Assembly (NCBI RefSeq): GCF_009932335.1
Contig: NZ_BLJF01000002.1
Coordinates: 248,001 to 312,000, forward strand
Direction of reading: 5' to 3'
DNA: 64,000 nt
From: Pseudomonas asiatica
GTDB taxonomy: Bacteria > Pseudomonadota > Gammaproteobacteria > Pseudomonadales > Pseudomonadaceae
In this document: positions 38,494-54,546 of the stretch, piece after piece
Position numbering within the stretch: the stretch's first letter is position 1
How the letters are laid out: every line of letters starts with the position of its first letter
The notes under the pieces: generated by a model
What the model was told of the DNA's origin: nothing
Databases searched by the model: none
The model's input: only the letters and a program-made list of their open reading frames with translations
Position numbers and translations under genes: made by a program

Positions 38494-38622
38494 CATGGAC
38501 GTTGCGCAGGAAGCGCAAAGGACAGATCAAGGATGACGACGAAGGACACCTGCCAGGATGGCGGGGCGATACGGATGTCACAGGGAAACAGTCTGGAAAA
38601 CCCCGCTTCGGCGGGGTTTTCT
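38494..38622 (+). ncRNA. rsmY: RsmY small regulatory RNA
   Basis: About 128 nucleotides that titrate RsmA/CsrA-type proteins. Many GGA motifs are present: TGGACG, the perfect hairpin-displayed GCGC-AGGAA-GCGC, AAGGACA, AAGGATG, GAAGGACA, CCAGGATGG, CAGGGA and CTGGA. It ends in a strong terminator, CCCCGC-TTCG-GCGGGG with TTTT after it (38601-38620). The GacA box upstream and the position beside a LysR gene agree with rsmY of other fluorescent pseudomonads. The 5' end is estimated from the -10. The terminator may also serve the convergent LysR gene, whose stop is 17 bases away. Confidence 0.88.
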
Positions 38623-51772: not shown

Positions 51773-51968
51773 GAAGTGACCTTGCCAGAGAGGCTGCGCA
51801 GGGGCGGAGCCTGAGTATAGGAGATGCCTGGAGGCCATTTTAGGGAGTGGGGTGTTCGTTATTAAGGTGCATATTGTTGTCTGAATGTAGCTTGAATCGT
51901 CGAAATGTATAAACAAGATTGCTTTATGACGAACAGGAAGCCTACCCATCTCAAGCACAGCATCGGCC

Positions 51969-52058
51969 CCCTGTGGGAGCGGGCGAGCCCGCGAAGAAGC
52001 CCCCGCGGTGTATGGCACGGGCTTCGCCCGTGTTCGCGGGCACGCCCGCTCCCACAGG
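51969..52058. repeat. REP pair (GCGGGCGAGCCCGC type)
   Basis: Arms TGTGGGAGCGGGCGAGCCCG and GCGGGCACGCCCGCTCC, with an inner CACGGGCTTCGCCCGTG hairpin, in the 600-base gap between davB and the DUF3077 gene. Confidence 0.92.
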
Positions 52059-52138
52059 GTGTGATCAGACAGTTCCTACACCCATGCCATGAATTAAAGA
52101 ATTACCCTACGCCCGCTATAGCCTCGGTCTGGCTGCGT

Positions 52139-52348
52139 GGGAAACGCCTCATCGTTAACTTCACTGGGTCGCCGCTGTTCGGGCGACTGGGTGTGAGAAC
52201 CCATCTCCAACTTCGTACCAAGGCTTATGTCATGGCAGCTGTGCGCGGGCAGGCTTTCGCCTGGCCGGATTTCCAAGTTGGCCGGTTCTCACCCCGTGCA
52301 TGGCTGCCACCTATTTCCCGTGAGAAGGAGTTGGTAGGCGGTTTTCTC
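52139..52348 (+). ncRNA. Candidate structured RNA leader with pseudoknot
   Basis: Nested complementary segments suggest a folded RNA. P1: GAAACGCCT (52141-52149) with AGGCGGTTTTC (52336-52346). Hairpin: GTCGCC (52168) with GGCGAC (52182). P3: GTGAGAACC (52193-52201) with GGTTCTCAC (52284-52292), continued by CCAACTT (52207) with AAGTTGG (52275). Hairpin CAGGC/GCCTG lies at 52250. TGGCAGC inside the P3 loop (52233-52239) can pair with GCTGCCA outside it (52303-52309), which would be a pseudoknot. It ends 25 bases before the DUF3077 ATG. I know no name for it. Confidence 0.55.
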
Positions 52349-52372
52349 AAGACTCAATTTGGAAACTGCATC

Positions 52373-52663
52373 ATGAAGAAGACTTATTCCGACCAACCCG
52401 AAAAACTGAAACCCACCGCAGAAAAAACCTTCTGCAACTGCGAAACCAGCCACCCGCCATTATTCGCCATACGCCCCGGCATCGACGCCGCAGACGCCTT
52501 GGTCCACGCCTGCCTGCTGGCCCGTGGCCTCAATCAGATCGCCACCGACTATGCCCAGCATCACGCCCCCGAGCGCAGCCGTGACATCGTCTGGTCGATG
52601 CAGCATTCCGCCGAAAGCCTTTCGGCGATTCTGGAAGGCCTGCTCGACGGCCAGGAGGCCTGA
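52373..52663 (+). CDS. DUF3077-type small protein
   Basis: 96 residues from ATG 52373. The frame stays open far upstream, but that stretch is the structured leader and a REP pair, so the short start is preferred. The central part (LFAIRPGIDAADALVHACLL) matches the small Pseudomonas DUF3077 proteins, which are helical and occur in many copies per genome. An upstream AAGGAG at 52325 is too far from the ATG to serve it; GGAAAC before the ATG is a weak site. Function unknown. It converges with the Lrp gene, 13 bases apart. Confidence 0.75.
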   Translation: MKKTYSDQPEKLKPTAEKTFCNCETSHPPLFAIRPGIDAADALVHACLLARGLNQIATDYAQHHAPERSRDIVWSMQHSAESLSAILEGLLDGQEA

Positions 52664-52676
52664 CCGCCAGCCAGGT

Positions 52677-53138
52677 TCAGAGCGGCTGCCCTCGGTCCAC
52701 CTTGCTGCTGAGAATGATCGACGTGGTGGTCTTCTCCACCCCGTCGACACTGCCGATCTGGTCGAGCAACTGGTCCAGTTGCTCGGGCGAATCCGTACGC
52801 AGCCAGGCCACATAGTCGAACTCGCCGCTCACTGCGCACAGCTGCTGTACCTGGCCCATGGCACTCAGGCGCCGCACCACCTCCTTGCCCGAGCGCGGCT
52901 GCACCTTGATCCCCACATACGCCTGCAGCCCACCCCCCATCACCCGCTGGCCCAGGCGCACGCCATAGCCGGAGATGACCTTGTTCTTCTCCAGCCGCTC
53001 CAGACGCGAGTTGACGGTAGTACGAGCGATGCCCAGCTGGCGGGCGAGGGTGGCGACGCTTTCGCGGGCGTTTATCTGCAACAGGGCGATCAGCTGGCGA
53101 TCGATTTCATCCAGCGTGATGGAGCGGGAATCCGACAT
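52677..53138 (-). CDS. Lrp/AsnC-family regulator
   Basis: 153 residues. N-terminal helix-turn-helix (LDEIDRQLIALLQINARESV, then LARQLGIARTTVNSRLERLE) and a C-terminal RAM/ACT-like effector domain (VVRRLSAMGQVQQLCAVSGE). Lrp-type proteins sense amino acids; the nearness to davBA makes lysine a reasonable effector, though a DUF3077 gene lies between. No terminator was seen in the 13 bases before the convergent stop. Confidence 0.92.
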   Translation of the reverse strand: MSDSRSITLDEIDRQLIALLQINARESVATLARQLGIARTTVNSRLERLEKNKVISGYGVRLGQRVMGGGLQAYVGIKVQPRSGKEVVRRLSAMGQVQQLCAVSGEFDYVAWLRTDSPEQLDQLLDQIGSVDGVEKTTTSIILSSKVDRGQPL

Positions 53139-53588: not shown

Positions 53589-53607
53589 CGTTTCTGGAGT
53601 GCAAAAA

Positions 53608-54546
53608 ATGCAGAGAAAGCTTGATTCTGAGCCTCTGCGCACTCGTATCTATATCGACGGCTACAACTTCTACTACGGCTGCTTGCGCGGCACACCGTAC
53701 AAGTGGCTCGACCTGCTACCTCTCTTTGAAAAGCACATCTTGCCTTCCATACTGGTCACGGACAGCCATGGCCAGATCAGGGCATGGCGGCTCCTGGAAT
53801 CCCCCTCGATCAAATATTTCACGGCAAAGATCATCGAGTCGGTCGCCCGTGCTGGCGATTCAGTGTCGTCACAAGCTCGCTACCACACTGCTTTGCGCAA
53901 GCTGCATGACGGTCGAATAGAGCTCATCGAAGGTTATTACGCCGTCAATAAAATGAAGGTGAAGATCGTCGACCCTGAAAATCCGGACAAGGCTCCGCGT
54001 GAGTGCCAGGAAATCCAGGCCTGGAAGGTGGAGGAGAAACAGAGCGACGTGAATCTGGCCCTCCAGGCTTACCATGATTCGATCACGGGGCAGGTTGACC
54101 ATGCCGTCATCGTTACCAACGATACTGACATCGCTCCTGCACTTCAGATGATTCGTGCTCACACAGATGTGCGGATTGGCGTGGTTGTGCCGACGTCGGG
54201 GCAAAACCGCTCGGCGAATACCGACCTGATCAAGTTTGCGCACTGGAAGCGAGAGCACATCAATTCAGGCGAGCTTGCGGCCTGTCAGCTACCGAGAGTG
54301 ATTCCAGGGAGGAAACCAACCATCAAGCCGGAGTCCTGGTATGGACAACCTGAACTGCTGCAGGAAATTCTGGATTTGGCCATTCCTGTACGCGGAAGCA
54401 GGGCGGCAGCGTTCAAGTGGATGGAGCAGCCCAATCAGTTCCTCAGTGGTGAGCGGCCGATAGAGCTGGTGGAAACTGCCGAAGGTGCGACACGGGTTCT
54501 TCAGTACATACACAGCTGGATAGCCCAGCAAGAGGAGTTGCCCTAG
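53608..54546 (+). CDS. NYN-domain protein (PIN-like nuclease fold)
   Basis: 312 residues from ATG 53608 with GGAG eight bases upstream; GTG 53599 is an alternative. NYN domain about residues 8-215: first acidic motif RTRIYIDGYNFYYG, middle EEKQSDVNLALQAYHDS and VIVTNDTDIAPAL with clustered Asp for metal binding. The family includes LabA/limkain-type RNases. About 90 C-terminal residues are of unknown type. GC content is visibly lower than in neighbouring genes and codons such as ATA and AAA are more common. With a tRNA 75 bases downstream, it may be an accessory gene acquired at this site. The substrate is unknown. Confidence 0.88.
   Translation: MQRKLDSEPLRTRIYIDGYNFYYGCLRGTPYKWLDLLPLFEKHILPSILVTDSHGQIRAWRLLESPSIKYFTAKIIESVARAGDSVSSQARYHTALRKLHDGRIELIEGYYAVNKMKVKIVDPENPDKAPRECQEIQAWKVEEKQSDVNLALQAYHDSITGQVDHAVIVTNDTDIAPALQMIRAHTDVRIGVVVPTSGQNRSANTDLIKFAHWKREHINSGELAACQLPRVIPGRKPTIKPESWYGQPELLQEILDLAIPVRGSRAAAFKWMEQPNQFLSGERPIELVETAEGATRVLQYIHSWIAQQEELP

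Follow-up and report, generated by a model that had tools for sequence, protein, structure and literature searches.

A predicted chromosomal C4 antisense RNA of the phage P1 type in the leader of a DUF6124-like gene of Pseudomonas asiatica

The leader, its gene and their parts

The DNA analysed here, referred to as the window, is a 64,000-nucleotide stretch from Pseudomonas asiatica (contig NZ_BLJF01000002.1, positions 248,001 to 312,000). On its forward strand, the gene predicted to be under the control of the leader (52373..52663) encodes a 96-amino-acid, DUF6124-like small protein (52373-52660; Pfam), and the unit formed by leader and gene is flanked by an amine oxidase gene and an Lrp-family gene (Pfam), the former of which we take to be tryptophan-monooxygenase-like. 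Elsewhere in the window lie the gene for the RsmY sRNA (38495-38620; 115.7 bits in Rfam) and, at 53599-54546, a gene for a 315-amino-acid protein with an NYN domain and a Xre/MbcA/ParS C-terminal toxin-binding domain, near which a tRNA-Met gene is found.

At E <= 0.001, the sole Pfam match of the small protein is to DUF6124 (PF19619; 22.3 bits against a cut-off of 27, E = 1.3e-4), and it spans positions 1-62 of the 63 in the profile; since this score is below the cut-off, the protein is called only DUF6124-like. The original prediction had taken the gene for a DUF3077 gene, a name that has to be given up, as the window protein has no match to DUF3077 (PF11275) at the same threshold. Pfam and the other searches gave it no match to a family that names a function. 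AlphaFold, run on 16 sequences, returned a low-confidence N-terminus and helices at residues 39-63 and 67-95 (mean pLDDT 71.8); a Foldseek search with this model found nothing at E <= 0.001 (best E-value 0.26), a sequence search of solved structures gave nothing informative (8 hits, E 0.5-0.76), and NCBIfam matched 0 of 8 proteins. By tblastn, the window protein was absent from 50,697 phage records (E <= 0.01) and 72,556 plasmid records (E <= 0.001), and a phage or plasmid home for it was rejected on that ground; three further proteins encoded downstream of C4 elements likewise found nothing in the phage records, and one of five proteins scanned matched PHROG 36471, a PHROG labelled as of unknown function. 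In evolved furfural-tolerant strains of P. putida, a mutation is reported in a DUF3077 gene that bears a pseudogene annotation, and the accessible part of that report treats such mutations as possibly causal and mentions no test of the DUF3077 gene itself (PMC9630843).

The leader had been described as an unnamed regulatory RNA family, and a search of Rfam had been proposed as a check. That search assigns it to a named family, C4 antisense RNA (RF01695), accompanied by a weak match to the c4-a1b1 motif (RF03163). The C4 match, one of three above threshold in the window, lies at 52228..52314 on the forward strand and is far above the gathering score (66.5 bits against 45; E = 1.1e-10 in the 64-kb window); it aligns over the full length of the model, with zero non-standard pairs marked and with the two target-binding arms, a' and b', in or beside loops.

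All of the complementarities in the original prediction are present in the DNA, including a hairpin (52168-52173/52182-52187) and an inner hairpin near 52250/52259, and several of them acquire a new identity within the C4 structure. A seven-base complementarity read as a pseudoknot (TGGCAGC 52233-52239 with GCTGCCA 52303-52309) is the P1 stem of the C4 consensus structure; six of its seven pairs were checked and are intact in 11 of 11 sequences (the window and ten orthologs). The ‘two-part helix’ of the prediction is equally real as complementarity, and corresponds to the upstream sites a1 and b1 paired with a' (52286-52292) and with part of b' (52275-52281). The b' arm (TTTCCAAGTTGG; 52270..52281) complements b1 and the downstream site b2, and the a' arm (TTCTCAC; 52286..52292) complements a1 and the downstream site a2. 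Upstream, a1 (GTGAGAA; 52193..52199) is placed by the predicted fold in the loop of GGGTGTGAGAACCC and is the exact complement of a', while b1 (CCAACTT; 52207..52213) is exactly complementary to AAGTTGG within b' (52275-52281).

Downstream of C4, the second GTGAGAA, which the prediction had noted as a complement of TTCTCAC, is the a2 target site (52320..52326), and each of its 7 pairs with a' is intact in all 11 aligned sequences. The columns of P1 and of a'-a2 hardly vary, so these retained pairs are evidence of conservation and not of covariation. The b2 target site (TTGGAAA; 52359..52365), absent from the elements originally listed, exactly complements b' and overlaps the likely Shine-Dalgarno sequence, with the ATG at 52373 beginning 7 nt further on. 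The AAGGAG at 52325-52330, originally noted beside the second GTGAGAA, is a poor candidate for the ribosome-binding site: it lies more than 40 nt from the ATG, and the nearer GGAAA within b2 (52361-52365) fits better. The prediction that two sets of pairings exclude each other holds at the level of sequence, in a form that would bear on translation and with pairs kept across orthologs. Between a2 and b2 lies a possible further element, ‘c2’ (52332..52341), an imperfect mimic of the P1 5' strand that can pair with the P1 3' strand.

When the window was aligned by eye to the C4 RNA annotated in phage P1 (48343-48419, 77 nt), the predicted mature RNA fell at about 52234-52311 (78 nt), and a GG at 52234, at the start of stem P1, occupies the position expected for the cut. 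When C4 and its target were co-folded, C4 kept its own structure (-62.8 together versus -47.9 and -12.8 apart), so target pairing would need to begin from the loops.

The promoter side of the leader was approached through a permissive Rfam scan of 52000-52700, in which the c4-a1b1 element (hairpin plus a1 site; 52155..52207, forward strand) scored 25.1 bits against a gathering score of 46.7, which it thus does not reach (E = 4.4e-4 in 701 nt). That gathering score is reached by two of the 11 loci (the orthologs L057 and L062), the other nine being below it, and by 10 of 20 own-genome loci scanned. The RF03163 model opens with a TAGTCT-like box, and its positions 2-7 correspond to the annotated -10 of P1c4 in phage P1 (48218-48223); the same positions of the window match give a putative -10 box, TAACTT (52156..52161). 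By eye, TAGnCT or TAACnT boxes lie about 17 nt past a TTG-type -35 in several paralogs, and the window itself has a weak -35, at about 52133-52138. From these features transcription would be expected to start near 52168, which would leave the 5' arm of a predicted closing helix (52141-52149 with 52336-52346) upstream of the -10 box and outside the RNA. This helix was rejected: it pairs in the window and is poorly conserved, as among its nine pairs in 11 sequences four are broken in 7-9 sequences, four in 1-4 and one in none.

Several other features were seen around the upstream regions of the C4 loci. A DNA box like ATCCTACG occurs 113-124 nt upstream of the C4 start at 13 of 22 own-genome loci (52104-52112 in the window), four of the 13 having an additional copy upstream, and could be a candidate shared activator or operator site; a CTGAAC-N-CTTCAG inverted repeat occurs at five own-genome loci. 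These boxes were found with a pattern set by eye, and their recurrence is given without a chance control. At two loci with near-identical downstream genes, L021 and L023, pairing of the arms with their own upstream flank is poor within 75 nt and the c4-a1b1 matches lie further upstream; isrK (RF01394) matches overlap a1/b1 or lie just past them (44.5 and 49.3 bits, cut-off 50), and phage P1 has a weak isrK match at a similar place.

Fit between arms and targets, and coupling of C4 to small genes

The a' and b' arms of this genome pair better with their own downstream targets than with those of other loci (mean -28.1 versus -20.9 kcal/mol), and also with their own upstream flanks (mean -34.7 versus -25.5 kcal/mol for other loci), a difference reached in 0 of 20,000 permutations in each case. 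Exact-word matching gave the same picture for b' (7.68 versus 4.90 nt downstream and 6.86 versus 4.87 upstream) and for a' (7.36 versus 4.94 downstream and 7.32 versus 5.01 upstream; 0 of 20,000 permutations for each of the four comparisons). The own-target advantage was repeated (0 of 20,000) among the 52 loci with distinct b' in a wider set of 63 loci, made up of 22 from this genome, 40 from elsewhere and phage P1. An a2 match of at least 7 nt is found in 48 of these 52 loci and a b2 match of that length in 33, own b2 being the unique best word match at 18 of the 52 and tied for best at 10; the ties and non-best cases indicate that exact words alone are not always enough to pick the cognate site. 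Ranked by energy, the own downstream target comes first for just 6 of 22 arms.

Seven own-genome loci have one a' word in common, the word for GTGAGAA, and out of 5,040 permutations of their b' arms the true one alone reaches the observed sum; the 22 own-genome copies carry 21 different b' words and a small number of a' classes. From this diversity little cross-talk between the switches would be expected, and many switches may coexist in a cell while insulated from one another. The permutation tests together suggest selection on the matching of C4 to its target.

Many loci, phage P1 included, carry between a2 and b2 a copy of the P1 5' strand (like GTGGCAGC), the c2 mimic introduced above. Permuted assignments seldom equalled the fit of the mimic to its own P1 across the 63 loci (5 of 20,000), among the 40 loci from other genomes (1 of 20,000) and among 11 loci outside the genus, phage P1 being one of them (58 of 20,000), and within this genome the mimic is not specific to its own locus (8,393 of 20,000). 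As a family-level hint, c2 is a possible anti-C4 arm that would open P1.

Covariation in the proposed helices had been named as support for the original prediction, and the matching of arms to targets proves strong between loci and moderate among orthologs of the window locus. Ten loci 72-97% identical to that of the window were found in a sample of 199 genomes, with C4 above cut-off in 11 of 11 loci when the window's own (L053) is included. The b' arm varies between ortholog groups and b1/b2 tend to follow, TTTCCAA occurring with TTGGAAA and GCCTCC with GGAGGC. Grouped by b' type, II and IV arms pair far better with the b2 of II/IV than with that of I/III; the split is weaker for I and III arms, related types cross-pair (arm III reaches -18.6 with the b2 of IV versus -18.7 with its own), three of the four b' types pair better with the b2 of another type than with their own, and the type I arm reaches just -9.0 at its own b1.

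A second line of evidence is the company that C4 keeps. By eye, 17 of the 22 own-genome C4 loci precede an intact small open reading frame of like kind; 0-59 nt separate the C4 match from its first in-frame ATG, and in 11 of the 17 cases its product has a V-P-D-P-P-like N-terminus. Also by eye, the small gene looks disrupted at L026, L028 and L033, L022 is followed by short open reading frames of another look, and L042 has none; C4 is above cut-off at all four of L026, L028, L033 and L042. For ten own-genome downstream proteins, Pfam gave DUF3077 above cut-off for three, DUF6124 under cut-off for three, two of them with a DUF3077 match that is likewise under cut-off, and neither for four.

Taken from the side of the genes, 12 of 14 DUF3077 matches and three of four DUF6124 matches in this genome have a C4 no more than 700 nt upstream on their own strand. 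By the same measure, another genome (G010) has 27 of 29 DUF6124 and 2 of 2 DUF3077 matches behind a C4, with 25 of the 27 C4-coupled DUF6124 matches at 183-228 nt; conversely, 29 of its 36 C4 elements, which include one partial match under cut-off, have a DUF6124 or DUF3077 partner. The prediction of a recurrent structured RNA that accompanies DUF3077/DUF6124 genes across the genus is thus borne out. Across 40 genomes, C4 copy number and the summed copy number of DUF6124 and DUF3077 are correlated (Spearman 0.91); these genomes are related and so do not amount to 40 independent points, the two Pfam models partly overlap so that the sum may take one gene twice, DUF3077 was counted among at most 26 candidates scored per genome, and the counts take in every match at E <= 0.001, some of them under the gathering score. 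Four of the 40 genomes are without C4, and the same four are without DUF6124 and DUF3077. At L017 (C1 near 2929742), the best DUF6124 match of this genome stands without a C4 in front, and the stretch fetched there contains a match to the PrrF sRNA.

Forty C4 loci were also fetched from other genomes (30 within the genus, 10 outside), picked among the best-scoring. For the first genes of ten of these, Pfam gave DUF6124 above cut-off at L125, L131 and L141, DUF3077 at L123, Bro-N at L124 (with L153 just under cut-off), AntA at L158, Rha at L159, and no match for two. C4 therefore precedes antirepressor-type prophage genes as well as DUF genes.

Copy number, gain and loss

Similar sequences had been sought elsewhere as a check on the original prediction, and many exist. 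This genome has 22 C4 matches, every one above cut-off. C4 had matches in 0 of 14 control genomes. A C4 match is present in at least 184 of 199 genomes of the genus sample, and above cut-off in at least 183, with at most 20 candidates scored per genome. When 40 genomes were scored more deeply, C4 was found in 36, with a median of 14 and a maximum of 42 matches at E <= 0.001, some of them under the gathering score, and 17 genomes had 20 or more; in the genome with 42 (G005), 39 are above cut-off. The c4-a1b1 motif occurs in 35 of the 40 genomes, reaching 41 per genome. Across the phylum, C4 is found in at least 42 of 299 genomes, with at most 14 candidates scored in each.

The small protein of the window is encoded in 15 named Pseudomonas records, for example of P. 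juntendi, P. monteilii, P. inefficax, P. pudica, P. putida and P. entomophila, and the order of the genes that flank the unit in the window is the same in relatives with and without it. Among 28 other loci of the genus fetched by their Lrp gene, none contained the small protein (E <= 1e-5), and in the 20 of these that were scanned there was no C4 between the two flanking genes. The intergenic gap is 904 nt in the window and was measured in 14 relatives: 12 of these gaps span 140-283 nt and look like empty sites; the other two, L161 (1048 nt) and L162 (889 nt, with a run of N), contain other DNA, and in L161 a piece of the small gene, 78 nt long, survives. Compared with L163, the window carries an additional block at about 51910-52677. 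Judged from these comparisons, the module looks as if it is gained and lost. A palindromic repeat (CTGTGGGAGCGGGC...GCCCGCTCCCACAGG) that is REP-like by eye lies at 51960-52070, close to where this block begins on the left.

Three other genomes carry such elements on the far side of lrp: a C4 and a c4-a1b1 match were seen in L179, a c4-a1b1 match in L175 and the small gene in L097, which is the P. entomophila locus, where the gene lies about 1.7 kb off, across lrp. The lrp region looks as if it attracts C4-type modules.

Proposed function and relation to known systems

In phage P1, the icd/ant operon is kept silent by C4 antisense RNA. This RNA is reported to be processed by RNase P to about 77 nt at a cut marked by a GGW motif, with b' partly covering ribosome-binding sites and a' contributing specificity (PMC5320573); it inhibits antirepressor synthesis (PMC12197685), and full repression of ant requires it (PMC8198154). 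We consider it probable, at roughly 85%, that the leader in the window is a chromosomal copy of this P1-type immunity switch. The analysis identifies it as a real regulatory RNA and a member of a known family, with its mechanism taken from homology.

By analogy with P1, a single promoter would give a transcript that carries a1/b1, C4, a2/b2 and the small gene. C4 would fold into its stems and be released by a cut at the GG with which stem P1 starts, RNase P being the probable enzyme, and its a' and b' arms would then pair with a2 and b2, masking the ribosome-binding site of the DUF6124-like gene and blocking its translation. Competing pairings could set a threshold for this switch: on transcripts still uncut the arms would bind a1/b1, and the c2 mimic would bind the P1 3' strand. 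What the DNA itself establishes is a C4 match with its paired sites, a locus-specific fit between them, and a tight coupling of C4 to DUF6124/DUF3077 genes.

The original prediction pictured a purely cis-acting switch, that is, a riboswitch or switching leader of an unnamed family that works without a released antisense RNA. Mutually exclusive pairings and a recurrent leader in front of DUF3077/DUF6124 genes are what such an element would display; the fold and arms, however, match a named antisense RNA with known biology, the feature retained is a pairing of locus-variable words and not a ligand pocket, and the closing helix is poorly conserved. We regard this explanation as very unlikely, and homology points instead to an antisense RNA that would be processed from the leader and bind around the ribosome-binding site of the gene. 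Slightly less improbable, and still very unlikely, is the proposal that the main role of the chromosomal C4 RNAs is in trans, where they would serve as a store of immunity against phages with C4-targeted antirepressor operons. C4 RNA is said to be essential for P1/P7 heteroimmunity (PMC12197685), the copies are numerous and diverse, and C4 persists where the gene looks broken, all of which would suit a function in trans; yet among the 63 loci, apart from one artefact in the c2 region, no own-genome arm fits both downstream sites of another locus (a of 7, b of at least 8). Trans targeting within this set was rejected on that result, which is a weak test because few of the loci are prophage loci.

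The occurrence of C4 elsewhere before the prophage regulators noted above (AntA, Rha, Bro-N) also raises the prospect that the unit is a decayed prophage remnant whose C4 and target were retained by accident, as do the three of 22 downstream genes that look disrupted by eye and the one C4 without such a gene. Of the explanations considered we find this the least credible: the flanks are amine oxidase and Lrp-family genes in an order shared by relatives with and without the unit, the protein is missing from the phage and plasmid records searched and present in the 15 named Pseudomonas records, every one of the 11 loci has its C4, and pairing is retained though the words differ.

The reading preferred here, a chromosomal copy of the P1-type C4 switch, allows a wider proposal that we hold tentatively, at somewhat short of even odds: DUF6124 and DUF3077 genes may be the cargo of a domesticated, self-spreading C4 module, present as up to about 40 mutually insulated switches per chromosome, gained and lost intergenically, and silencing a large family of small proteins, which may be costly or toxic, for as long as neither a signal nor a phage interferes with C4 processing. 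Were this so, the copies would rank among the largest natural sets of orthogonal antisense pairs within a cell and would be a host-side counterpart to the phage immunity switch. The orphan families DUF3077 and DUF6124 gain a candidate regulator and a testable mode of control, and a phage immunity RNA is found repeated many times on Pseudomonas chromosomes, as a natural library of antisense RNA/target pairs within one organism.

The closest known system is the C4 RNA of phages P1 and P7, which shares with the window the fold, the a' and b' arms, the upstream a1/b1 and downstream a2/b2 sites, the placement of b2 at the ribosome-binding site, the GG at the expected cut and the placing of RNA and target in one leader, which for the window is predicted. 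In the annotated record of phage P1, which scores 68.8 bits for C4 and 51.0 for c4-a1b1, the order is promoter, a1, b1, C4, a2, b2 and icd start codon, and the window follows it, with a putative promoter. Unlike in the phages, the target in the window is a DUF6124-like chromosomal gene and not icd/ant, there is no recognised phage gene adjoining it, and the copy is one of 22 with 21 b' words.

The c4-a1b1 motif (RF03163; listed in Weinberg et al., 2010; PMC2864571) agrees with the window in its hairpin, -10-like box, a1 loop and order, and differs in score, given the 25.1 bits obtained against a cut-off of 46.7. Multi-copy chromosomal C4 is already known from Acinetobacter baumannii, whose Group 1 sRNAs resemble the present case in having many chromosomal C4-like RNAs per genome, processing at a GG motif and variable arms (Weiss et al., 2016; PMC5320573). 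The available portions of that paper mention no cognate downstream DUF3077/DUF6124 gene and place the differences between copies in a', whereas here b' is the most locus-specific arm (PMC5320573). The coupling of C4 to DUF6124/DUF3077 genes and the cognate target set in Pseudomonas were unreported in the literature searched (main texts, few of them from subscription journals), in which DUF6124 had no mention.

Type I toxin-antitoxin modules provide a further parallel, as they are multi-copy systems in which a locus-specific antisense RNA blocks translation of a small protein. The window is predicted to resemble them in each of these respects, and differs in that its antisense RNA and mRNA lie on the same strand and are probably parts of one transcript.
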